A DNA stretch of 64,000 nt from Pseudomonas sp. GOM6. GTDB taxonomy: Bacteria > Pseudomonadota > Gammaproteobacteria > Pseudomonadales > Pseudomonadaceae. The stretch covers positions 62,001 to 126,000 of the forward strand of contig NZ_JARPUS010000001.1 of the NCBI RefSeq assembly GCF_029537485.1. Direction: 5' to 3'. The position numbers and the translations under genes are program-made. Positions 16,840 through 30,366 of this stretch are shown piece by piece. How positions within the stretch are numbered: the first letter of the stretch is position 1; each line of letters starts with the position of its first letter. Below the pieces are notes generated by a model that made no database searches, was not told the origin of the DNA, and saw nothing but the letters and a program-made list of their open reading frames with translations.

Positions 16840-16987
16840 CGTGCTCTCAACGTTGTGGTTATGGCAGTAAAGCGCGGCTAAGTTTGGCAAACTTTGATTG
16901 CATCATGCGGTCAGTTTGCCACGCGCGCCCGCCACATTAGCAGTGAGCCAGTCACGAATGGACGTACAAGAATCGAGCAAGGCTGTA

Positions 16988-20455
<3,468 letters not shown>

Positions 20456-21265
20456 ATGCCTGACCAGATCGAGCTGCGCCTGCTGATCGAGGCCATCTAC
20501 CTGCGCTACAACTACGACTTCCGCAATTACTCCGGCGCTTCGCTCAAGCGCCGGGTGCGCCAGGCCCAGCAGCAGCTCGATTGCGCGACCATCTCCGCGC
20601 TGCAGGAGCGCATCCTGCACGACCCGCAGGCTTTCATGCAGCTGCTGCAGTTCCTCACCATTCCGGTCAGCGAAATGTTTCGTGACCCCGGCTACTTCCT
20701 CGCCCTGCGCGAGCAGGTGGTGCCGCTGCTGCACACCTACCCGTCGCTGAAGATCTGGGTAGCCGGTTGCAGCACCGGCGAGGAGGTCTACTCGCTGGCC
20801 ATCCTGCTGCATGAGGAAGGCTTGCTGGAACGCAGCATGATCTACGCCACCGACATCAACCCGCACTCGCTGGAGAAGGCCGAGCAGGGCATCTTCGCGC
20901 TCAGCAACCTGCGTACCTACACCGAGAACTACCAGAAGTCCGGCGGCCAGCGGGCCTTCTCCGACTACTACTCGGCGGCCTACGACCGCGTGCTGTTCGA
21001 CAAGATGCTGCGTCGCAACGTGGTTTTTGCCGACCATAGCCTGGCCACCGACAGCGTGTTCGCCGAGACCCAGCTGGTGTCCTGTCGCAATGTGCTGATC
21101 TATTTCAATCGCGAGCTCCAGGATCGCGCGCTCGGCCTGTTCCACGACTCCCTCTGCCACCGCGGCTTTCTCGGCCTGGGCAGCAAGGAGAGTCTGGATT
21201 TCTCCGCCTATGCCCAGCAGTTCGAGCCGCTGGTGCGCCAGGAACGGATTTTTCGCAAACGATGA
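20456..21265 (+). CDS. CheR-type protein-glutamate methyltransferase
   Basis: Methyltransferase of 269 residues. An N-terminal helical CheR domain (RYNYDFRNYSGASLKRRVRQ) precedes the SAM-binding domain with VSEMFRDPGYF, WVAGCSTGEEVYSLA, IYATDINPHSLEKA and LVSCRNVLIYF. It should use SAM to methylate glutamates on a partner protein. No TPR or other tail is present. The operon lacks a chemoreceptor, so the target may be the adjacent hybrid kinase. It overlaps the cheB-like gene by four bases. Confidence 0.9.
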   Translation: MPDQIELRLLIEAIYLRYNYDFRNYSGASLKRRVRQAQQQLDCATISALQERILHDPQAFMQLLQFLTIPVSEMFRDPGYFLALREQVVPLLHTYPSLKIWVAGCSTGEEVYSLAILLHEEGLLERSMIYATDINPHSLEKAEQGIFALSNLRTYTENYQKSGGQRAFSDYYSAAYDRVLFDKMLRRNVVFADHSLATDSVFAETQLVSCRNVLIYFNRELQDRALGLFHDSLCHRGFLGLGSKESLDFSAYAQQFEPLVRQERIFRKR

Positions 21266-21876
21266 ACGGGCCACGGCGAATCATCGTGCGCGGGCAGGCC
21301 CGCCCGGCCCCCGAAGCGCTGCTGATCGGGGCATCGGCGGGCGGGGTGGAGGCCCTGCTTCGTTTACTGGTGGACCTGCCCGGCGACTATGGCTTGCCCA
21401 TCGTGTGCCTGCTGCATGTGCCGGACAGCCGTGACAGTCTGTTGGCCGAGCTGCTGGCCCGGCGCCTGGCCCTGCCGGCCAAGGAGGCCGAGGACAAGGA
21501 GCGGCTGCGAGCGGGTGTGGTCTATGTCGCGCCTGCCGGTTATCACCTGTCGATCGAGCGTGACCACAGCTTTTCCCTGAGCCGCGAAGAGCCGCGGCAT
21601 TTTTCCCGGCCCTCCATCGATATTCTCTTTGAGTCTGCCGCCGACGCCTATGGCGCAGGTCTGGCGGCTGCCCTGCTCACGGGGGCCAACGAAGACGGCG
21701 CCGCGGGTCTGCTGGCCGTGCAGCGCGCCGGTGGCCTGACCCTGGTGCAGAGCCCCGCCGAGGCGCAGGTGCCGACCATGCCCGAGGCGGCCCTGGCGCT
21801 GCTGCAACCGGATTTTCTCCTGCCCCTGGCTGCCATGCACAGTCTGCTGGCCGAACTGGATGCCCCATCATGTTAA
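21262..21876 (+). CDS. CheB-type methylesterase domain without receiver
   Basis: Catalytic CheB domain alone, 204 residues. The serine motif GASAGGVEALLRLL, the histidine segment CLLHVPDS and the aspartate segment LLTGANEDGAAGLLAV supply the Ser-His-Asp triad. Canonical CheB has an N-terminal receiver that gates activity; here it is absent, so control must come from elsewhere, perhaps from receivers encoded beside it. It overlaps the genes on both sides, indicating translational coupling within the operon. Confidence 0.9.
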   Translation: MNGPRRIIVRGQARPAPEALLIGASAGGVEALLRLLVDLPGDYGLPIVCLLHVPDSRDSLLAELLARRLALPAKEAEDKERLRAGVVYVAPAGYHLSIERDHSFSLSREEPRHFSRPSIDILFESAADAYGAGLAAALLTGANEDGAAGLLAVQRAGGLTLVQSPAEAQVPTMPEAALALLQPDFLLPLAAMHSLLAELDAPSC

Positions 21877-23057
21877 GGAAGATTGAAGCCAAGCTGCTGA
21901 TCGTCGACGACCGGCCGGAGAACCTGCTGGCCCTGGAGAAGCTGATTCAGGATCAGGAGCGTACCGTGTACCAGGCCCGTAGTGGCGACGAGGCGCTGTC
22001 GCTGTTGCTCGAACACGAGTTCGCCCTGGCCATTCTGGATGTGCAGATGCCGGGCATGAACGGCTTCGAGCTGGCCGAGCTGATGCGCGGCACGGACAAG
22101 ACCAAGCAGATCCCGATCATCTTCGTCAGCGCTGCCGGGCGCGAGCTCAACTACGCCTTCAAGGGCTACGAGAGCGGTGCGGTGGACTTCCTGCACAAGC
22201 CGCTGTCGCCCCACGAAGTGCGCAGCAAGGTGTCGGTATTCGTCGAGCTGTATCGCCAGCGCAAGGCGCTCAACCGCCAGCTCGATGCGCTGGAGGCGGC
22301 GCGCCGTGAACAGGAAGCGCTGCTCGACGAGCTGCGTGAAACCCAGGCCGAACTGCAGCGCGCGGTACAGATGCGTGACGTGTTCATGTCCGTGGTCTCC
22401 CACGAGCTGCGCACGCCGCTCAATGGCCTGACCCTGGAAGTGCAGTTGCGCAAGTTGCGTCTGCAGCAGAACAACCTCGATGCCTTCAGCCCGGACAAGC
22501 TGCGCGAGATGACCGAGCGCGACGAACGGCAGATCCTCAACATGACCCGACTGATCGACGACATGCTGGATGTGTCACGCATCCGCACCGGCAAGTTGTC
22601 GATCCGTCCCCAGCCCAGCGACCTGGGCGTGCTGGCCGGGCGCGTGGTGGAGAACCTGAGCCCTCAGTTCGCCCATGCCGACAGCCGGGTGGCGCTCAGT
22701 GTCGAGGGGCCGGCGCCGGTGCGGATGGACGAGTTTCGCATCGAGCAGGTGCTGGCTAACCTGCTGACCAATGCCCTGCGCTATGGCGCGGGCAAGCCGG
22801 TGGAGGTCAGCGTTTACTGCCAGGCGCAGGAGGCGCGTGTCGACGTGCGCGATCAGGGGATGGGCATTTCTGCGGCGGATCAGCGGCGCGTGTTCGAGCA
22901 GTTCGAGCGGGTCGCTGACAACGGCGTACCCCAGGGGTTGGGGTTGGGCCTGTTCATCAGCGAGCAGATCGTCCAGGCCCACGGCGGGCGCATCGAGCTG
23001 AGCAGCCAGTTGGGCGAGGGCTCGTGTTTCAGCGTGATTCTGCCGTGCGGCAGGTGA
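21870..23057 (+). CDS. Receiver-histidine kinase fusion protein
   Basis: Soluble 395-residue protein: an N-terminal receiver (about 8-125; LLIVDDRPENLLALEKL, phosphoacceptor in LAILDVQMPGMNGFEL, lysine in FLHKPLSP), a short coiled coil, HisKA with SHELRTPLNGL, and HATPase with NLLTNALRYG, DQGMGI and GLGLGLFISEQIV. There is no membrane segment. A receiver placed ahead of a kinase suggests it is switched by phosphoryl transfer from another kinase, most simply the hybrid kinase at the start of the operon. It is the last gene of the cluster. Confidence 0.9.
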   Translation: MLRKIEAKLLIVDDRPENLLALEKLIQDQERTVYQARSGDEALSLLLEHEFALAILDVQMPGMNGFELAELMRGTDKTKQIPIIFVSAAGRELNYAFKGYESGAVDFLHKPLSPHEVRSKVSVFVELYRQRKALNRQLDALEAARREQEALLDELRETQAELQRAVQMRDVFMSVVSHELRTPLNGLTLEVQLRKLRLQQNNLDAFSPDKLREMTERDERQILNMTRLIDDMLDVSRIRTGKLSIRPQPSDLGVLAGRVVENLSPQFAHADSRVALSVEGPAPVRMDEFRIEQVLANLLTNALRYGAGKPVEVSVYCQAQEARVDVRDQGMGISAADQRRVFEQFERVADNGVPQGLGLGLFISEQIVQAHGGRIELSSQLGEGSCFSVILPCGR

Positions 23058-23058
23058 T

Positions 23059-23103
23059 CGTGCATTTTGCAATCATGCGAAATGCACGATCTTGCAGAAT
23101 GCA
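23059..23103 (+). promoter_or_regulatory. Putative upstream activator sites (TGCA-N3-TGCA dyads), proposed AlgB
   Basis: Three dyads occur: TGCATTTTGCA (23061-23071), TGCGAAATGCA (23076-23086) and TGCAGAATGCA (23093-23103). The first two form a 13-base inverted repeat with one mismatch. They lie about 65-110 bases upstream of a sigma-54 promoter, where an NtrC-type activator would bind. Assignment to AlgB is inference. Confidence 0.6.
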
Positions 23104-23128
23104 CGAAAGGTGCTCCGCGAGTATTTAT

Positions 23129-23141
23129 TAAGTTATTGATT
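23129..23141 (-). promoter_or_regulatory. IHF-like site
   Basis: On the reverse strand AATCAATAACTTA fits the IHF consensus WATCAANNNNTTR exactly. It lies between the activator dyads and the -24/-12 promoter, where DNA bending would be useful. Confidence 0.55.
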
Positions 23142-23167
23142 TATAAGAAATAAATATTGATTTTGGG

Positions 23168-23184
23168 TTGGCATGGTCGCTGCA
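23168..23184 (+). promoter_or_regulatory. Sigma-54 (-24/-12) promoter
   Basis: TTGGCATGGTCGCTGCA has GG and GC separated by exactly 10 bases and fits TGGCACRNNNNTTGCW at all but two positions. It reads toward the small exported protein gene at 23229. Confidence 0.75.
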
Positions 23185-23228
23185 AAAGTCAGGTTGTAAG
23201 CCCGACTGACTGCTGATGGAGAAGCGCC

Positions 23229-23519
23229 ATGTACACCGCCCCCCTGAGCCTGTTTTGTGCTGCTGCATTGCTGGTCAGCGGCGCTTACGCCAATGATTCC
23301 ATCGAGGCGAATGGCCGAGCTGCCGACTTCCGTGTGCCGGCTCACCTGCTCGTCGAGAAGCGCGATGCGGACGCCCTACAGCCGTTTGCCAGTCTGCATC
23401 GTCAGGCCTTTGATGCCACGCGCCAGGACGGCCACTGGCTGCGCATCTCCGAGCCAGACACCGAAACGGCTGTGCGTCAGCCCCAATCCCTCGACCACAC
23501 ACCGCGTTGGGTGTTCTGA
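23229..23519 (+). CDS. Small exported protein ending in WVF, module copy 1
   Basis: Unrecognised protein of 96 residues. It begins with a signal peptide (MYTAPLSLFCAAALLVSGAYA) and has a charged, mostly hydrophilic mature part ending HTPRWVF. It is the first gene after a sigma-54 promoter with dyad sites and is followed 14 bases later by a tiny membrane protein gene. A shorter exported protein with the same C-terminal WVF, also followed by a tiny membrane protein gene, lies at 28661. Function unknown; envelope location is inferred from the signal peptide. Confidence 0.75.
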   Translation: MYTAPLSLFCAAALLVSGAYANDSIEANGRAADFRVPAHLLVEKRDADALQPFASLHRQAFDATRQDGHWLRISEPDTETAVRQPQSLDHTPRWVF

Positions 23520-23533
23520 GCAAGGAGCCTGTC

Positions 23534-23719
23534 ATGTCCCGAAGTGCCGTTTGCATGCTGATCACGACCCTGCTTAGCCTGGCCGTGCTGTGGCTGTATC
23601 CCCAACTGGATGTCACCGTGGCGATGCTGCTCAAGTGTCTGGCCTCTGTGGCTGCCGTGGCCTCCGTGCTGGCGCTGCTGATAGGGCGCCGCTACAAGTT
23701 CGACCCGGTCCTGCGCTGA
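23534..23719 (+). CDS. Tiny two-helix membrane protein, module copy 1
   Basis: A 61-residue protein made of two hydrophobic helices (about 6-24 and 33-52) with a short basic tail (GRRYKFDPVLR). AAGGAG lies six bases before ATG 23534. It is the second gene of the sigma-54 operon that begins at 23229 and is followed by a strong terminator. No family recognised. Its placement after a WVF protein parallels the gene at 28860. Confidence 0.72.
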   Translation: MSRSAVCMLITTLLSLAVLWLYPQLDVTVAMLLKCLASVAAVASVLALLIGRRYKFDPVLR

Positions 23720-23736
23720 GCAGCGATCACATCAAG

Positions 23737-23758
23737 GCCGCCTACGGGCGGCTTTTTT
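23737..23758 (+). terminator. Terminator of the first sigma-54 operon
   Basis: GCCGCC (23737-23742) pairs with GGCGGC (23747-23752), followed by six T. Confidence 0.88.
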
Positions 23759-23803
23759 GCGTTGGCTGCCCGAGGCCATGGGCATGCAAGGGGGTGACGT
23801 GGT

Positions 23804-23902
23804 GTAGGTTGGGGTCGCCTAGGTTGAGCGTGGCGGAACCCGCCGGGTGACCAGGCGGCTCCGTTGTTGGGCTTCGGCGCAGCGCACCTCAGCCCAACCT
23901 AC
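23804..23902. repeat. Inverted-repeat-bounded intergenic element
   Basis: A stretch of about 100 bases is bounded by GTAGGTTGGG (23804-23813) and its exact complement CCCAACCTAC (23893-23902). The internal wording (TTGAGCGTGGCGGAACCC) resembles the dispersed GTAGGTTGGGTTGAGC elements common in pseudomonad genomes. It lies between convergent operons and encodes nothing evident. Confidence 0.7.
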
Positions 23903-23933
23903 GCTGTCTGCGCGTTGCAGGTTAACGGAAGCC

Positions 23934-25706
23934 TCATACCGGCAGGCTGAGGTAGAAGTTCGCGCCCTGGCCCGGTCGTGAGTGCACACCGAGCAGGCCG
24001 CTGTGCAATTGCACGATCTCCCGCGACAGGGCCAGGCCCAGGCCGACACCGCCCTTGCGCGGGCCGACCTGGACAAAGGGCTCGAAGATGCGGGTCTGCT
24101 GGCTGAAGGGGATGCCCTGGCCCTGGTCCTGTACGCTGATGATCACGCGCTCACCCTGGCGTTTTGCCTGCAGCTGCACCTCATCACCCGGTTCGCTGTG
24201 GCGCAGGGCGTTGCTGATCAGGTTATCCAGCACCCTGGCGATCTGCCCCGCATCGAGGCTCAGGCGCGGCAGTGGCTGCTCGCTGGCGGCGCTGAGTGTC
24301 ACCTGGCGCTCTGCGGCTTCCAGGGCAAAACGCTCACGGGCCTGTTCAAGCAGCTCGGCCAGGTCGCAAGGCTCGCGCCGCAGGATCTGCAGGCCATTCT
24401 GGTAGCGCGAGAAGTTGAGCAGGTCGTCGATCAGCTGCACCAGGCGGCGGATTTCCTCGTCGACCGTGCGCATCAGATCCTGCTCGCGGCCCTCTTCGGG
24501 CAGGACGAGCCGCTCACGCAGCAGACTGAACGCCATGTGGATGCCGGTAACCGGCGTGCGCAGCTCATGCGAGGCGCGCAGTACGAACTCCCCGCGCACG
24601 CGCTCGAAGGCGCGCTGGGCGGTGACATCACGCAGCACCATGACGGCCCCGAGGATGCCGCGCTCTTCATCCTGCACCGGGGTCAGGCTGTAGCTGAGCA
24701 GGCGCTGTTCGCCGTCGCTGTCGATCACTAGGTCTTCGCCCTGCCGTGGGGTCTCACCCGCCAGTGCCTGGCTCAGCTGCTCGGCCAGCGGGGCATGTCC
24801 CAGCAGTTGCGGCAACGCTTGTCCCGTGGGCACTTCGTTCCAGCCGAATTGCCGCTGTGCCACGGGATTGCCATGTTCCAGGCGGCCATCACAGCCGATG
24901 ATCAGCAAGCCGTGATCGATGCTGTCGAGTACCGCCTGCAGGCGCCGCTGGCTGGCGATCAGCTCTGCGACCCGGCTGGCGCGGAACTGCCTCAGCGCCT
25001 CGGCCATCTGGGCAAAGCGCTGGGTCAGCGAAGCCAGTTCGGCTTCGCGGGTCTGCGGCAGGGCGATTTGGAAGTCACCCTGACCAATCTGGTCGGCGGC
25101 GGCGGCCAGCGCTTCGAGCGGTCGGCCGAAGCGCTGGGCTACGCCATGCGCCGTCAGAAAACCGGTTACCAGCAGCGCCAGGCTGATCAGGCCAAGCAGG
25201 CCGGCCACCAGCCAGGCCCGCTCGCGGGCCTGCTGCTGTTCCTGCTCCACGCTCTGCACATAGCGGGTCTGCACGGCATTGATACGATCACGCAAGGCCT
25301 GCAGGGCCAGGGCGAAGGTGTCGTCATTGAGCAGGTCGCGGCGTATTTGCAGCGGGCTGTCGAGGAAATGGTCGAAGTGGCTGTAGGCACGCTCGATCTC
25401 GGTCACCGCCTGCAGATCGCTGTCATCGATGGCGCCCGCCGCCGCCCGTTGCAGCCACTGACGGAAGCGCTGGTCGGAGGCCTCCAGCGCCTGGCGATCC
25501 AGGCGGTCACGCAGCAGCAGGATGACCTGGCTGCCCATCTCCTGGCGCATGCCGAGGCTGGCATCGATGATCTCCAGGTTGCGGGTCATGGCCTGGTTCT
25601 GCTCGCGGGTCAGCAGCAGGGTGCTGGCCATGCCCAGCAGCAGGCCGAGCAGGGCCAGGGTCATGAGTGCGCTGCTGCTGATGAACAGCCGGCTGCGCAG
25701 TTTCAT
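23934..25706 (-). CDS. kinB: Alginate-regulating sensor histidine kinase KinB
   Basis: Inner-membrane kinase of 590 residues, cognate to AlgB. Two transmembrane helices (about 10-32 and 165-187) flank a periplasmic helical sensor; HAMP, PAS, HisKA (RASHELRTPVTG) and HATPase (NLISNALRHS, DQGQGIPFSQQ, GVGLGLALSREIV) follow. The conserved KinB wording IFEPFVQVG is present. In P. aeruginosa KinB acts as phosphatase and kinase on AlgB and restrains alginate production. Its ATG overlaps the algB stop (ATGA), so they form one operon. It is convergent with the small sigma-54 operon. Confidence 0.96.
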   Translation of the reverse strand: MKLRSRLFISSSALMTLALLGLLLGMASTLLLTREQNQAMTRNLEIIDASLGMRQEMGSQVILLLRDRLDRQALEASDQRFRQWLQRAAAGAIDDSDLQAVTEIERAYSHFDHFLDSPLQIRRDLLNDDTFALALQALRDRINAVQTRYVQSVEQEQQQARERAWLVAGLLGLISLALLVTGFLTAHGVAQRFGRPLEALAAAADQIGQGDFQIALPQTREAELASLTQRFAQMAEALRQFRASRVAELIASQRRLQAVLDSIDHGLLIIGCDGRLEHGNPVAQRQFGWNEVPTGQALPQLLGHAPLAEQLSQALAGETPRQGEDLVIDSDGEQRLLSYSLTPVQDEERGILGAVMVLRDVTAQRAFERVRGEFVLRASHELRTPVTGIHMAFSLLRERLVLPEEGREQDLMRTVDEEIRRLVQLIDDLLNFSRYQNGLQILRREPCDLAELLEQARERFALEAAERQVTLSAASEQPLPRLSLDAGQIARVLDNLISNALRHSEPGDEVQLQAKRQGERVIISVQDQGQGIPFSQQTRIFEPFVQVGPRKGGVGLGLALSREIVQLHSGLLGVHSRPGQGANFYLSLPV

Positions 25707-27049
25707 AGGCCGTACTGCTTGCGTTTGCGGTACAGGGTGGAGACGTCGATGCCCAGGGTGCTGGCGGCCTGTTCCAGGGTCGGGCTGGTGGCCAGCATGG
25801 CGGCGATATGGGCCTTCTCCAGCTCCTCCAGGCTCAAGGCGGCCCCGACCCTGGCGGCGTTGTCCGTGGTGCTGGGCGTGAGGCCGAGGTGCGTCGGTTC
25901 GATTTCTGTGCCGGGGCAGATGATACTGGCCCGCTCGATCACGTTGCGCAGTTCGCGCACGTTGCCGGGCCAGTGATAGTCCTGCAGGGTGGCCAGGGCT
26001 TCACTGCTGAAGGCGCGCGCCGGGCGCCCGTACTCGCTGACAAAGTGCGCGAGAAAACGCTCGGCCAGGGTCATGACATCCTCCCGGCGTTCACGCAGGG
26101 GGGGCAGTTTGAGGGTAATGACGTTGAGGCGGTACAGCAGGTCTTCGCGAAAACGCCCCTCGCGCACCATGTCATCGAGATCGAGGTTGGTGGCGGCGAG
26201 AATGCGTACATCGGCCTGGCGCGTCACCGGGTCGCCAACCCGTTCGTATTCCTTGTCCTGAATGAAGCGCAGCAGCTTGGGTTGCAGCGGCAGCGGGAAG
26301 TCGCCGATTTCGTCGAGGAACAGGGTGCCACCGTCGGCCTGGCTGACTCGGCCCAGGGTGCTTTCGCTGGCGCCGGTGAAGGCGCCGCGGCTGTGGCCGA
26401 ACAGTTCGCTTTCCATCAGCTCGGTCGTCAGTGACGGGCAGTTGATGGTGGCGAAGGGTTTGCGTGCGCGTCGGCTCCAGCCGTGAATGGCCCGGGCCAG
26501 TTCGCCCTTGCCGGTACCGGATTCGCCGAGGATGAGGATGTTGGCATCGGTGGCTGCCACTTGGCGGGCCGTCTCCAATACGGCCATGAAGGCCGGACTG
26601 TGCGAATCGAGGCCGTCCTGGGTGCGTTTCATCTGGCCTTCCAGGGCTTCCAGGCGCGCGGCCAGCTGGCGCACTTCCAGTTGTTTGGCGGCCGCCAGGC
26701 GCAGCTGCTCAGGGCTGCACGGCTTGACCAGATAGTCGGCGGCGCCGGCCTGAATGGCGTCTACCGCGCTGTCCACCGCCGAGTGGGCGGTGACGATCAC
26801 CACGCGCATCCAGGGGGCCTGCACGCGCAGGCGTTGCAGCACTTCCAGGCCATCGTCTTCGCCCAGGCGCAGGTCGAGGAAGCACAGGTCGAACACCTGG
26901 CGCTGCAGCAGTGTTTCGGCCTGGGCCGCACTGCTGGCGGTGGCCACCTGATAGCCGCTGTCTTCTAGGCAATAGCGGAAGGTGCGCAGGATGGCGGCTT
27001 CATCGTCCACCAGCAGGATGCGTCCACTGTTGTTCGGGCTATTGGGCAT
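25703..27049 (-). CDS. algB: NtrC-family response regulator AlgB
   Basis: Two-component activator of 448 residues. Receiver (about 1-125; [24 protein letters not shown] region, lysine in [11 protein letters not shown]), AAA+ domain with Walker [12 protein letters not shown], the sigma-54-contacting loop GAFTGA and Walker [11 protein letters not shown], then a Fis-type HTH ending [12 protein letters not shown]. The intact GAFTGA indicates it can drive sigma-54 RNA polymerase. AlgB activates algD in P. aeruginosa. Start at ATG 27049 with GGAGAG upstream. Dyad sites about 46 and 77 bases upstream could also serve autoregulation. Confidence 0.96.
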
Positions 27050-27094
27050 CGTTGGCTCTCCGTTATTGCTGTGCAGCTTAGTCAGCGCAATGTC

Positions 27095-27138
27095 GTGCAA
27101 GTTGCACGGTGATTTTCAGGCGACCTTGCACAATGCAA
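27095..27138 (+). promoter_or_regulatory. Putative upstream activator sites in the algB / BON-operon gap
   Basis: GTGCAAGTTGCAC (27095-27107) and TTGCACAATGCAA (27126-27138) are both dyads of the TGCA-N3-TGCA type, spaced 31 bases apart, about three helical turns. They lie 70-110 bases upstream of a sigma-54 promoter. Similar dyads precede the sigma-54 promoter at 23168. Confidence 0.62.
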
Positions 27139-27163
27139 GCGGTGGGCGTCTATGTGTATCTGC

Positions 27164-27176
27164 TAAATATATGATT
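27164..27176 (-). promoter_or_regulatory. IHF-like site
   Basis: The reverse strand reads AATCATATATTTA, one mismatch from WATCAANNNNTTR, 30 bases before the -24 GG. The site upstream of 23229 has the same offset, and TGATTTATAAGAA is identical in both regions (27172-27184 and 23137-23149). Confidence 0.5.
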
Positions 27177-27204
27177 TATAAGAATAAAAAATATTCTCCA
27201 GGGC

Positions 27205-27220
27205 TGGCACAGGGCTTGCG
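27205..27220 (+). promoter_or_regulatory. Sigma-54 (-24/-12) promoter
   Basis: TGGCACAGGGCTTGCG matches TGGCACRNNNNTTGCW at 15 of 16 positions, with GG and GC 10 bases apart. It reads toward the BON-domain gene at 27280. Confidence 0.85.
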
Positions 27221-27279
27221 ATATCTCCTCCAGCGGTCGCCACGGCGGCTGCAACGGACACGTATTTGGAGGAACCGCC

Positions 27280-28113
27280 ATGTATCAGATGAAGAAACTC
27301 GCCCTGGCCACCCTGACCGCCGGTGTGCTCGGCCTCTCACCTCTGGCCGCCCAGGCCGCCGAGGGTGATCTCGGTCGCCAGCTCAGTGAGGCGCGCCAGG
27401 AAGGCTCGATCTGGACGGCGATCGCACTCAACCGCCATCTCAGCCCGTTCAGCATCGATGTGGATGTGGAGAACGGCGTGGCCGTGCTGACCGGCAAGGT
27501 GGAGAGCGACATCGATCGCGACCTGGCTGGCCAGCTGGCTCTCGGCACCGAGGGCGTGAAGAAGGTGGACAACCGTCTGCTGGTGGACCCCGACACCCAG
27601 CCGCGCCAGCAGGAAAGCAGCCTGGCCCAGCAATTCGATGACGCCACCCTGACCGCCATGGTCAAGTCCAAGCTGCTGTGGAACAGCAATACCGAGGGCC
27701 TGGACATCGATGTCGACACCCAGAACGGCGTGGTCACCCTCAAGGGTAACGCTCGCTCGGCCGAGGCCAAGGAGCTGGCTGGCCATCTGGCGCAAAACAC
27801 CGAGGGTGTGGAGCGGGTCAACAACCACCTTAGCGTGAGTGAGGCCGACAGCACCGCCGCCCAGGCCCAGCAGGCGGCCGAAGACACCACGCGCGCCATC
27901 AGCGATGCCTGGATCACCAGCAAGGTGAAGTCCAGCTACCTGTATGACCGCCAGCTCGATGGCCTGGATATCTCGGTCGAGACCAAGGCCGGCATGGTCG
28001 AACTCGGTGGCAGCGTGCTCAGCGCGGCCGAGAAGGAACTGGCCATCGAGACTGCCCGCAATATCCGCGGTGTGCGCGGCGTTGATGCCGACGCCCTGCG
28101 CATCGACGGCTGA
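27280..28113 (+). CDS. Periplasmic triple-BON-domain protein (OsmY-like)
   Basis: Exported protein of 277 residues. After a signal peptide ending AAQAA come three BON domains (about 40-100, 120-185 and 205-275). Each has the pattern of a strand-turn D(V/I)xVxxGxVxLxGxV followed by a helix with the glycine-valine hinge: VENGVAVLTGKV, TQNGVVTLKGNA and TKAGMVELGGSV. BON proteins bind phospholipid or stabilise the envelope during osmotic stress. GGAGGA precedes ATG 27280. It is the first gene of the operon driven by the sigma-54 promoter at 27205. Confidence 0.88.
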   Translation: MYQMKKLALATLTAGVLGLSPLAAQAAEGDLGRQLSEARQEGSIWTAIALNRHLSPFSIDVDVENGVAVLTGKVESDIDRDLAGQLALGTEGVKKVDNRLLVDPDTQPRQQESSLAQQFDDATLTAMVKSKLLWNSNTEGLDIDVDTQNGVVTLKGNARSAEAKELAGHLAQNTEGVERVNNHLSVSEADSTAAQAQQAAEDTTRAISDAWITSKVKSSYLYDRQLDGLDISVETKAGMVELGGSVLSAAEKELAIETARNIRGVRGVDADALRIDG

Positions 28114-28178
28114 CTCCCCGGCGCCGGCACTTCGCCGGCGCCCCAACCGGCGTGTGACGCCGCAACAAGGAGAAAACC

Positions 28179-28610
28179 ATGACCCAGCAAACAGCTCAGC
28201 TCAACGAACTGATCGAGATCACCCGAGACGGCCAGCGTTTCTATGAGCACGCCAGCCGCGAGGTCAAGGACCAGCACCTGAAGAGCCTGTTCGGCGAGAT
28301 GTCGCGGGCCAAGGTCGAGGTGATTCAGGCGCTGTCCGCCCGTGTCGCCGCCAACCACGAGCAGCCCGCCACTGGCGGCACCCTGCTTGGCAAGCTGCGC
28401 CAGGTCTATGCCGATACCAAGGCCACCCTGGTCAGCGACGAGGCGGCCACTTACGTGGCGCAGTTGGAGGAGGCCGAGGACCGCATCCTGCACGCCTTCG
28501 AGGACGCCCTGCAAAGCGCCGATGCGCAGCTCAAGCCGCTGCTGGTGAGCGAGATGCCCAAGGTGCGCGCCTGCCACGACCGCATGCGCGGTGTGAAGCG
28601 CACGATCTGA
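28179..28610 (+). CDS. PA2169-family four-helix-bundle protein (DUF2383)
   Basis: Soluble helical protein of 143 residues. It has LNELIEITRDGQRFYEHASREV, followed by two helices ending EEAEDRILHAFEDAL and MPKVRACHDRMRGVKR, a pattern of the DUF2383 ferritin-like group. No signal peptide. Related proteins are often stress-induced; no biochemical role is established. AGGAG lies seven bases upstream. Its place in an envelope-stress-type operon suggests a protective function. Confidence 0.82.
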   Translation: MTQQTAQLNELIEITRDGQRFYEHASREVKDQHLKSLFGEMSRAKVEVIQALSARVAANHEQPATGGTLLGKLRQVYADTKATLVSDEAATYVAQLEEAEDRILHAFEDALQSADAQLKPLLVSEMPKVRACHDRMRGVKRTI

Positions 28611-28660
28611 GCCCACGGCGGGTCGCCGCATGGGCGGCCCGCACGCCAGGAGAAACCGTC

Positions 28661-28846
28661 ATGAACGCCCTGCATCTGTTGACGCCCGCGGCCTTGTTGC
28701 TGGTGCTCGGTCTGGTTACCGGCCTGAGCTGGCCGACCTCGTCCAGCCTGCGTCAGCAAGAGGCGATCCAGCCGCAGCCATTTCCGCCGCTGGCTGTACG
28801 GGCCGATCCGCTGCAGGCCCGGCGCACCGTGCACTGGGTGTTTTGA
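28661..28846 (+). CDS. Small exported protein ending in WVF, module copy 2
   Basis: Unrecognised protein of 61 residues. An N-terminal hydrophobic helix (about 8-24) acts as signal or anchor, then a proline-rich stretch (QPQPFPPLAVRADP) leads to the C-terminus RRTVHWVF. The 96-residue protein at 23229 ends PRWVF and, like this one, is followed by a tiny membrane protein gene. AGGAG precedes the start. It lies in the second sigma-54 operon. Confidence 0.7.
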   Translation: MNALHLLTPAALLLVLGLVTGLSWPTSSSLRQQEAIQPQPFPPLAVRADPLQARRTVHWVF

Positions 28847-28859
28847 GGAGGTCCCTGTC

Positions 28860-29033
28860 ATGTATGCCCTGCTTGTTCTGGGTGTGATCGCCTTGCTGGC
28901 CCTGGCCAGTCTGATCAGTGCCCTGCTGGTTGGTCAGGCCCTGCTGCAGAGCCGCCTGATCGAAACCGAGGACATGTCGGCGCAACCCGCGTCCGTCAGC
29001 CTCAACCGTCATCCGCAGCCGTTGACTGCGTAG
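28860..29033 (+). CDS. Tiny membrane protein, module copy 2
   Basis: A 57-residue protein with one long hydrophobic helix (about 2-25, [20 protein letters not shown]) and a hydrophilic tail. GAGGAGG lies seven bases before the ATG. It follows the WVF protein by 13 bases, as the tiny protein at 23534 follows its own partner by 14. No family recognised. Its shortness makes the call depend on the strong ribosome binding site and operon position. Confidence 0.68.
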
Positions 29034-29043
29034 GAGAGTCGCC

Positions 29044-29208
29044 ATGCTTAGCTGGTCCATTACCTTCCTGATCGTTGCCATCATTGCCGCCGTTTTCGGC
29101 TTTGGTGGTATCGCTGGCACTGCCGCCGGCATCGCCAAGATCCTGTTCCTGGTGTTCCTGGTGATGTTCGTCCTGTCGTTCATCCTGGGCCGCCGCCCTC
29201 GCAGCTGA
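29044..29208 (+). CDS. DUF1328 small membrane protein
   Basis: A 54-residue protein of two hydrophobic helices around a glycine-rich turn ([22 protein letters not shown], shortened here to its first half [10 protein letters not shown]) ending ILGRRPRS, the pattern of DUF1328 (YtjA-like). In P. aeruginosa a DUF1328 gene lies next to algB and the ivy homologue. Function unknown. Ribosome binding site GGAGAG is seven bases upstream. Confidence 0.85.
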
Positions 29209-29218
29209 GGAGGAGCCC

Positions 29219-29680
29219 ATGACATCCCGCCACACTCTGTTGGCCGCCGCCCTGCTGACCCTGGCCTGCACCGCGCAGGCCACCAGCAGCGGCGCTGAGA
29301 TGCGCGTGGAGCAGATCCTGCGCAGTGACCCGCAATACCAGGACACCTGGCAGGCGGTGCTCGAAGATGAGGAGCGCCTGCCCGACTGGGTCATCAACCT
29401 GGACGGTCAGGGCCAGCCCATGCAGACCCTGGAAAGCGATGGTGAGCAGTACCTGGTCGGTCGTCTGTGCGATGGCTACGACTGCTTTCACCAACGTCTG
29501 TTCGTTGCATTTAGCTGGGACAAGCAGCAGGCCTACGCCCTCTGGGTGCAGCTGCCGCAAGCCCTGCCGGTCGATGCAGCGCCTGCTCAGCACGACCGTC
29601 AGCGCTGGCTCGGTGAGCCGGATGAGGACATGCGTCAGCTGTTGCTGGAGCAGCTGGCCGCTGAGCCGGACTGGTACTGA
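29219..29680 (+). CDS. ivy: Ivy-family inhibitor of vertebrate lysozyme
   Basis: Periplasmic protein of 153 residues that inhibits C-type lysozyme. After the signal peptide (MTSRHTLLAAALLTLACTAQA) the mature part has the Ivy core, with the disulfide loop LCDGYDC corresponding to the active CKPHDC loop of E. coli Ivy, followed by RLFVAFSWDKQQAYALWVQL. The loop keeps both cysteines but lacks the usual Lys-Pro-His triplet, so strength of inhibition is uncertain. It is the last gene of the sigma-54 operon region and lies at the same locus as the P. aeruginosa homologue. Confidence 0.87.
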   Translation: MTSRHTLLAAALLTLACTAQATSSGAEMRVEQILRSDPQYQDTWQAVLEDEERLPDWVINLDGQGQPMQTLESDGEQYLVGRLCDGYDCFHQRLFVAFSWDKQQAYALWVQLPQALPVDAAPAQHDRQRWLGEPDEDMRQLLLEQLAAEPDWY

Positions 29681-29758
29681 ACCGGGCGCTTCTGCCCTGG
29701 TTGCGTTCTGACACAGACGGACGGTCACGCCATAGGCGCGTGAGCCGTGGCTTTCCGG

Positions 29759-29764
29759 TATAAT
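29759..29764 (+). promoter_or_regulatory. Possible -10 element upstream of purE
   Basis: A perfect TATAAT lies about 110 bases before purE. No clear -35 hexamer is seen. A terminator hairpin lies between it and purE. Confidence 0.4.
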
Positions 29765-29803
29765 GCGCCGCCTTCGGGGCCCCAGAGGCCTGATCCAATC
29801 ATG

Positions 29804-29838
29804 ACAAGCCACGCCCAATGCGTGGCTTGTTGGTTTTT
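29804..29838 (+). terminator. Terminator or attenuator upstream of purE
   Basis: ACAAGCCACGC (29804-29814) pairs perfectly with GCGTGGCTTGT (29820-29830), followed by a T-rich run. It ends 37 bases before the purE start. It either ends the ivy transcript or attenuates purEK. Confidence 0.8.
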
Positions 29839-29874
29839 GTCGCGCCGCCAGGCGCCCGAACAAGAGGCACAACG

Positions 29875-30366
29875 ATGAGCGCACTGGTTGGCGTGATCAT
29901 GGGTTCCAAGTCCGACTGGAGCACCCTGAGCCATACCGCGGAGATGCTGGAGAAGCTCGGCATCCCCTACGAGGTGAAGGTGGTTTCCGCCCACCGCACG
30001 CCGGATCTGCTGTTCCAGTACGCCGAACAGGCCGAGGAACGCGGCATCCAGGTCATCATCGCCGGTGCCGGTGGCGCCGCCCACCTGCCGGGCATGTGCG
30101 CGGCCAAGACGCATCTGCCGGTACTCGGCGTGCCGGTGCAGTCCGCCGTGCTCTCCGGCGTCGACTCGCTGCTGTCGATTGTGCAGATGCCGGCCGGCAT
30201 TCCGGTCGCCACCCTGGCCATCGGCAAGGCCGGTGCGGTCAACGCCGCGCTGCTGGCCGCCAGCATTCTTGGTCACCAGCATCCGCAGTTCCATGCCAAG
30301 CTCAAGCAGTTCCGCGACGAGCAGACGCAGACCGTGCTGGACAATCCGGACCCCCGCGAAGCCTGA
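29875..30366 (+). CDS. purE: N5-carboxyaminoimidazole ribonucleotide mutase PurE
   Basis: Class I PurE, 163 residues, converting N5-CAIR to CAIR in purine synthesis. Substrate loops are intact: [33 protein letters not shown], and [21 protein letters not shown]. The catalytic His lies in SAHRTP. AAGAGG precedes ATG 29875. purK follows after 17 bases, so the two form an operon. Confidence 0.97.

Follow-up and report, generated by a model that had tools for sequence, protein, structure and literature searches.

The 64-kb window analysed here, that is, the whole stretch of 64,000 nucleotides from Pseudomonas sp. GOM6, contains a kinB-algB pair flanked by two sets of short genes, operon 1 being located on the plus strand downstream of kinB and operon 2 being oriented divergently from algB. 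The following features can be deduced:

23229..23519, plus strand: operon 1 gene 1, 96-aa small protein with a signal-like N-terminus and the ending RWVF, no Pfam or NCBIfam match
23534..23719, plus strand: operon 1 gene 2, 61-aa PA3371 family protein (NF041882.1, 66 bits at a cut-off of 50)
23734..23755, plus strand: terminator-like hairpin 3' of operon 1 (consensus scan only)
23934..25706, minus strand: kinB, sensor kinase (KinB_sensor, HAMP, PAS, HisKA and HATPase_c)
25703..27049, minus strand: algB, NtrC-type response regulator and predicted activator (receiver, Sigma54_activat, Fis-type HTH, GAFTGA)
27280..28113, plus strand: operon 2 gene 1, protein of 277 aa carrying three BON domains (PF04972; the OsmY model scores below its cut-off)
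28179..28610, plus strand: operon 2 gene 2, DUF2383 / PA2169 family four-helix protein
28661..28846, plus strand: presumed member of operon 2, 61-aa small protein ending in HWVF and resembling operon 1 gene 1, no family match
28860..29033, plus strand: presumed member of operon 2, 57-aa ORF, no family match
29044..29208, plus strand: presumed member of operon 2, 54-aa DUF1328 membrane protein

The gene at 25703..27049 shows all characteristics of AlgB, i.e., a receiver domain, an AAA+ domain with GAFTGA and a Fis-type HTH, and is followed by kinB. As claimed in the initial annotation, it encodes the sole NtrC-type activator in the window, the other 16 of the 17 Sigma54_activat matches being located elsewhere in the genome, and GAFTGA is kept. 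The operon products are probably envelope proteins with a role in envelope stress, as judged from predicted family names. Small proteins ending in WVF are encoded in both operons (23229-23519 and 28661-28846) and at the same place in relatives, and this ending looks like a common signal.

Upstream of both operons, the TGCA-N3-TGCA dyads, the IHF match, the shared 13-mer and the -24/-12 element previously described could all be located, and the full set is beyond what is obtained by chance in shuffled sequences:

23059..23073, plus strand: distal dyad of promoter 1, CGTGCATTTTGCAAT, predicted AlgB site
23091..23105, plus strand: proximal dyad of promoter 1, CTTGCAGAATGCACG, predicted AlgB site, 32 bp past the distal dyad
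23129..23141, plus strand: IHF-consensus match of promoter 1, TAAGTTATTGATT, 0 mismatches
23168..23184, plus strand: -24/-12 sigma-54-type element of promoter 1, TTGGCATGGTCGCTGCA
27094..27108, plus strand: distal dyad of promoter 2, CGTGCAAGTTGCACG, perfect palindrome, predicted AlgB site
27125..27139, plus strand: proximal dyad of promoter 2, CTTGCACAATGCAAG, predicted AlgB site, 31 bp past the distal dyad
27164..27176, plus strand: IHF-consensus match of promoter 2, TAAATATATGATT, 1 mismatch
27204..27220, plus strand: -24/-12 sigma-54-type element of promoter 2, CTGGCACAGGGCTTGCG

The TGCA-N3-TGCA cores start at 23061, 23093, 27096 and 27127, corresponding to dyad-to-dyad distances of 32 bp in promoter 1 and 31 bp in promoter 2. 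Sigma-54 promoters follow a -24/-12 consensus of approximately YTGGCACG-N4-YTGCW, and both TTGGCATGGTCGCTGCA and CTGGCACAGGGCTTGCG, bearing GG and GC at fixed spacing, are close to it. IHF sites were scored against the consensus YAANNNNTTGATW. The matches are indeed positioned upstream of the -24 element, but not at the 29-30 bases given before, as they end 27 and 28 bases ahead of TGGC. The 13-mer TGATTTATAAGAA, present at 23137 and 27172, was rejected as a separate element since it shares bases with the IHF match and has a tail that differs among relatives. Both promoters thus show a helically phased pair of putative activator sites, with an IHF match between this pair and the -24 element; paired activator sites in fixed phase upstream of IHF and -24/-12 are the usual sigma-54 enhancer layout. 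Scanning 23000-29900 for sigma-70 promoters gave none, against 1.0 expected by chance, a result of little weight.

Four dyads were found in a pattern scan of the 64 kb, all of them in the two promoters, while 60 whole-window shuffles gave a mean of 2.7 single dyads and no pair. In dinucleotide shuffles of the two intergenic regions (5000 each), a single dyad was obtained in 2.0 and 1.3% and a TGGC-N8-TGC site in 3.5 and 5.0% of the cases, a dyad pair in one and none, respectively, and the full layout not at all. Hence, it is the combination of elements, not the single elements, that exceeds chance. In the whole 4.3-Mb genome, 59 dyads face only 9 matches of the reversed pattern.

Searching this genome for a dyad together with a well-spaced sigma-54 site, as had been proposed in the initial annotation, resulted in 6 matches, 3 of them with a second dyad. 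The three full copies are the two window promoters and C3:150713-150833, the latter 40 bp before a DUF3509 gene. A fourth promoter, on C34, has one dyad with one mismatch and an IHF-like match and precedes a BON gene (192-aa frame). Rejected were C3:117087, C6:49866 and C47:138717, where a sigma-54 site and a dyad are present but no second dyad, as well as C1:408653, C13:56368, C6:44315, C18:36267 and C5:54334, each with a single exact dyad but lacking a sigma-54 site at a suitable position.

For comparison across the genus, a strict pattern was defined as two dyads 14-28 bases apart, followed after 50-80 bases by TGGC-N8-TGC. It is found in 118 of 149 genus genomes (including a repeat artefact in G123), its reversed control in none of the 149. 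Spacings were evaluated in 49 distinct strict matches, artefacts among them, from 48 loci (L060-L089 and L120-L137). In 47 of these, the dyads are spaced by 30-32. The best IHF match has at most one mismatch in 44 and is located 24-27 bases past the proximal dyad in 44, counted without an IHF chance control. In operon 1 promoters of the L063 type, 16-17 rather than 27-28 bases separate the IHF match from the -24 element, one helical turn less. For letter counts, L068, L078, L133 and the minus-strand match of L065 were left out. In all 45 remaining matches, TGGC is followed by A, a position absent from the search pattern, and then by C or T; thus, positions not targeted by the search also fit sigma-54. 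The gap between proximal dyad and TGGC amounts to 64-68 in 34 of the 49 matches and to 54-56, about one helical turn shorter, in another 11. Such a shift by a full turn, together with the usual enhancer layout of a phased dyad pair ahead of an IHF match and -24/-12, argues against the dyads being sites of a repressor or one-component factor unrelated to sigma-54 and lying beside a sigma-54 promoter driven otherwise; even considering that palindromic sites are common to many regulators and that dyads this close to the algB start could repress algB, such an arrangement is very improbable.

The genes following the promoter belong to a small number of types. Among the 30 loci L060-L089, WVF-type and/or PA3371-family genes, i.e., relatives of operon 1, follow the promoter in 18, BON genes in 7 and genes of the DUF3509 type in 3, besides one locus with a gene for a 306-aa membrane protein and one repeat artefact (L068). 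Overall, the recurrent families are WVF-ending small proteins with the PA3371 family, BON, CsbD and DUF3509. The artefacts are tandem TGCAAGC repeats mimicking the dyad pattern in G123 (C238, C305) and in G082:C63 (L068), and the minus-strand match of L065 represents its own palindromic dyads read backwards. Hence, repeats and palindromic pairs can produce false pattern matches; nevertheless, that the matching motifs as such are due to chance or repeats and have no function is hardly conceivable in view of the shuffles, the reversed-pattern controls, control stretches elsewhere in the same loci and the recurrence of the same gene families downstream.

The dyads are conserved upstream of orthologous operons, as the same layout precedes relatives of both operons in many genomes, either adjoining algB or distant from it. 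The predicted regulon is genus-wide, also comprising a DUF3509 gene and a second BON gene in the own genome and BON-CsbD operons in relatives. The suggestion that the core of the regulon is tied to the algB locus applies to the divergent operon, which is located there nearly everywhere, but not generally to the operon on the kinB side, found in some species only. The latter follows kinB also in G113, with the kinB-side promoter before the operon 1 relative, and, by coordinates, in G041, G042, G063 and G064, and in many other genomes operon 1 relatives are located elsewhere with the promoter retained.

At a threshold of E <= 1e-150, AlgB is present in 144 of the 149 genus genomes and absent from G079, G093, G118, G123 and G138, where the best relatives are 40-46% identical. 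Four of these five lack a strict match, and the fifth, G123, has three, all in the tandem TGCAAGC repeat and 4-5 mismatches away from the phased composite (23 fixed bases). Single-dyad matches in the AlgB-less G079 and G093 were likewise rejected, being 5-6 mismatches from the composite. Accordingly, the strict pattern occurs in 117 of 144 AlgB-bearing genomes, counted by pattern, and in none of the five AlgB-less ones (Fisher p = 0.0004, or p = 0.007 with G123 kept, both ignoring kinship). Speaking against AlgB, the strict pattern is missing from 27 of the 144 AlgB-bearing genomes, where degenerate copies adjoining algB are common. In AlgB-less G118, the three-BON gene is kept and no dyads or -24/-12 element were seen before it.

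In an order-wide sample of 341 genomes, 17 have AlgB, 14 the strict pattern and 13 both, so that the pattern is present in 13 of 17 genomes with AlgB versus 1 of 324 without it, kinship being ignored. Two AlgB genomes of the sample lie outside the own family, and the strict pattern is present in one of them (p = 0.012). The phased composite lies within the 760 bp divergent from algB in all 17 AlgB genomes, with no mismatch in 5, one in 6, two in 5 and three in 1; those without strict match (G168, G415, G469 and G214) have one mismatch each. As G224 and G214, which belong to other families, carry the composite beside algB, the site accompanies the regulator; in G224, the exact layout separates algB from a BON gene.

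None of the 79 named loci listed is named P. aeruginosa; an AlgB with 74% identity or more is encoded in 52 of them (Pseudomonas, Stutzerimonas, Halopseudomonas and unassigned bins). Among the matches listed, 51 of these 52 show the composite within 700 bp on the divergent side of algB, the number of mismatches being 0 in 17, 1 in 2, 2 in 24 and 3 in 8 loci. As a control, 2 of 1828 equal stretches from both strands of the same loci reach three or fewer mismatches, and these may be other copies. In contrast to the AlgB reading, L171 has AlgB and lacks the composite in the 700 bp divergent from algB, and Lysobacter loci with AlgB-like genes (57-58% identity) do not show it beside these genes; no composite was found adjoining other distant relatives of at most 50% identity.

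Hence, the promoter is found only where AlgB is found, ignoring kinship, with two exceptions. G435 bears a strict match without AlgB, located before a gene reading like a polysaccharide-export gene (no family search), and might possess another activator with a similar site. The respective locus L133 shows two dyads 28 bp apart, an IHF-like match and -24/-12. In G094, algB is broken up, its two pieces being located on opposite strands at a distance of about 13 kb (contig 2, 2181269-2196872), and the BON gene adjoining one of them has retained a single degenerate dyad and no sigma-54 site. However, the same genome keeps a one-mismatch copy before a DUF3509-like gene, which is at odds with the AlgB reading. 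Both cases might suggest that the promoters are true sigma-54 promoters with another NtrC-type activator bound at the dyads, the linkage to algB being incidental or due to shared regulation of algB, the more so as the own genome has 12 strong Sigma54_activat matches and five of its eleven activators other than AlgB have no match among the 30 loci searched in AlgB-less genomes, which hold part of the activators there. On the other hand, relatives of 74-90% identity exist for five others in AlgB-less, promoter-less genomes, for two of these activators in every one of the five genomes, and for a sixth, a relative of 70% identity is present in one AlgB-less genome. Moreover, the layout tracks AlgB across the order, adjoining algB in 17 of 17 cases, and the dyads are also present upstream of algD. 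An activator other than AlgB is therefore unlikely. Of the earlier proposal "AlgB, or a paralogue", the first part is supported, a paralogue being less likely in view of the five activators with relatives in AlgB-less genomes, although five more have no match among the loci searched there.

Of the four AlgD-type genes for which the upstream DNA sufficed, three, from three genomes, are preceded by exact dyads; AlgD-type genes were named by an N-terminal motif which we take to be characteristic of AlgD, and a further AlgD-type gene in G316 was left out due to too little upstream DNA. Relative to ATG, the dyads are located at -631 and -529 in G241, at -653 and -551 in G269 and at -446 in G078, whereas, contrary to the AlgB reading, a second AlgD-like gene of G078 has no dyad upstream. 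When the transcription start is estimated at 35 bases past the GGAACT box, the distal dyads are near -240 and -251, and both fall inside the region from -274 to -224, presumably the one through which AlgB acts on algD. For background, 8 dyads were counted in 56,691 bp of 16 other loci of the same group, with algB and BON promoters included. Thus, the site is shared with the known AlgB target algD, as far as the N-terminal motif identifies AlgD. In L282 and L273, from two genomes, the algD-upstream dyads are exactly 102 bp apart, compared with 31 bp in the sigma-54 promoters.

Taken together, promoter presence tracking AlgB and recurrence of the dyad upstream of algD support the assumption that AlgB drives both operons, and at a probability of roughly 85% both promoters are bound and activated by AlgB, which is predicted from these sequence comparisons to turn on both operons and thus their small proteins with a probable role in envelope stress. 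AlgB dimers would occupy the two dyads from the same face of the helix, as suggested by the spacing of 30-32 bp, about three helical turns. IHF would bend the A/T-rich DNA between the dyads and the -24 element, judging from the consensus and its near-constant position, and the AlgB ATPase would then open sigma-54 polymerase at -24/-12 via its GAFTGA loop, as known for the family. By their vicinity to the algB start, the sites may also feed back on algB. The phosphorylation state of AlgB would be set by KinB and, where present, BphP (PMC6932827).

This scheme resembles classical NtrC-type promoters in the order of activator sites, IHF site in between and -24/-12 but differs from them in the TGCA-N3-TGCA half-sites and a gene set particular to this regulon. 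AlgB and the kind of promoter (NtrC-type enhancer, IHF, sigma-54) are known. A study by Damron from 2012 has, by its title, reportedly linked KinB and RpoN to a gene set of P. aeruginosa. Control of algD by KinB-AlgB in P. aeruginosa involves the same regulator, and the same dyad is found upstream of algD in the three genomes mentioned. However, algD is AlgU-dependent, with dyads about 100 bp apart and far upstream, while the promoters described here are of the sigma-54 type, with dyads 31-32 bp apart, and precede non-alginate genes. Direct binding of AlgB to the algD promoter is stated in PMC6979010 and in PMC8988225 (both citing Leech 2008), according to a review the unphosphorylated protein reportedly binds there at three sites (PMC10418997), and RpoN is also implicated in algD expression besides AlgU (PMC4064291). 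In the part available of PMC6932827, AlgB is an NtrC-family protein with GAFTGA, KinB acts as its phosphatase and BphP-AlgB mediates light signalling in P. aeruginosa; the regulator is the same as here, and neither an AlgB site nor any of the present operons appears in that text. The statement therein that algB-kinB is present in all sequenced pseudomonads contrasts with the 5 of 149 genus genomes without AlgB found here. An HT-SELEX atlas names AlgB among predicted regulators (PMC8041468), its available text giving no match for TGCA or "AlgB motif", and a P. syringae RNA-seq and ChIP-seq study includes AlgB/KinB (Xie 2022, as cited in PMC11957545). Both data sets may already contain the motif; among the texts accessible to our literature search, no paper was found tying AlgB to these operons or to a TGCA-N3-TGCA site.

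Judged from sequence comparison, AlgB, well known as an alginate regulator, would likely serve mainly to control small proteins with a predicted role in cell-envelope stress. In terms of evolution, we somewhat favor the idea that the ancestral task of KinB-AlgB was a sigma-54 envelope-stress regulon marked by paired dyads and anchored divergent from algB, comprising BON, CsbD, DUF2383, DUF1328/PA3371 with WVF-ending small proteins and DUF3509, and that alginate control is a later branch established by adding AlgB sites upstream of algD. Such a history would account for the retained GAFTGA of AlgB and also for the normal alginate yield of an A. vinelandii algB mutant (PMC6979010). AlgB has mostly been studied in the context of alginate, biofilm and virulence, and a defined site with a genus-wide target list would yield a core sigma-54 regulon that can be tested with few promoter fusions. 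The proteins listed would then be outputs of KinB and BphP light signals since both act through AlgB, according to the available part of PMC6932827.

Further signalling genes are found directly 5' of operon 1, where 16898-23057 encodes a CHASE3-GAF hybrid kinase with three receiver domains and a receiver-histidine kinase, accompanied by CheR- and CheB-like ORFs (assigned by reading only).
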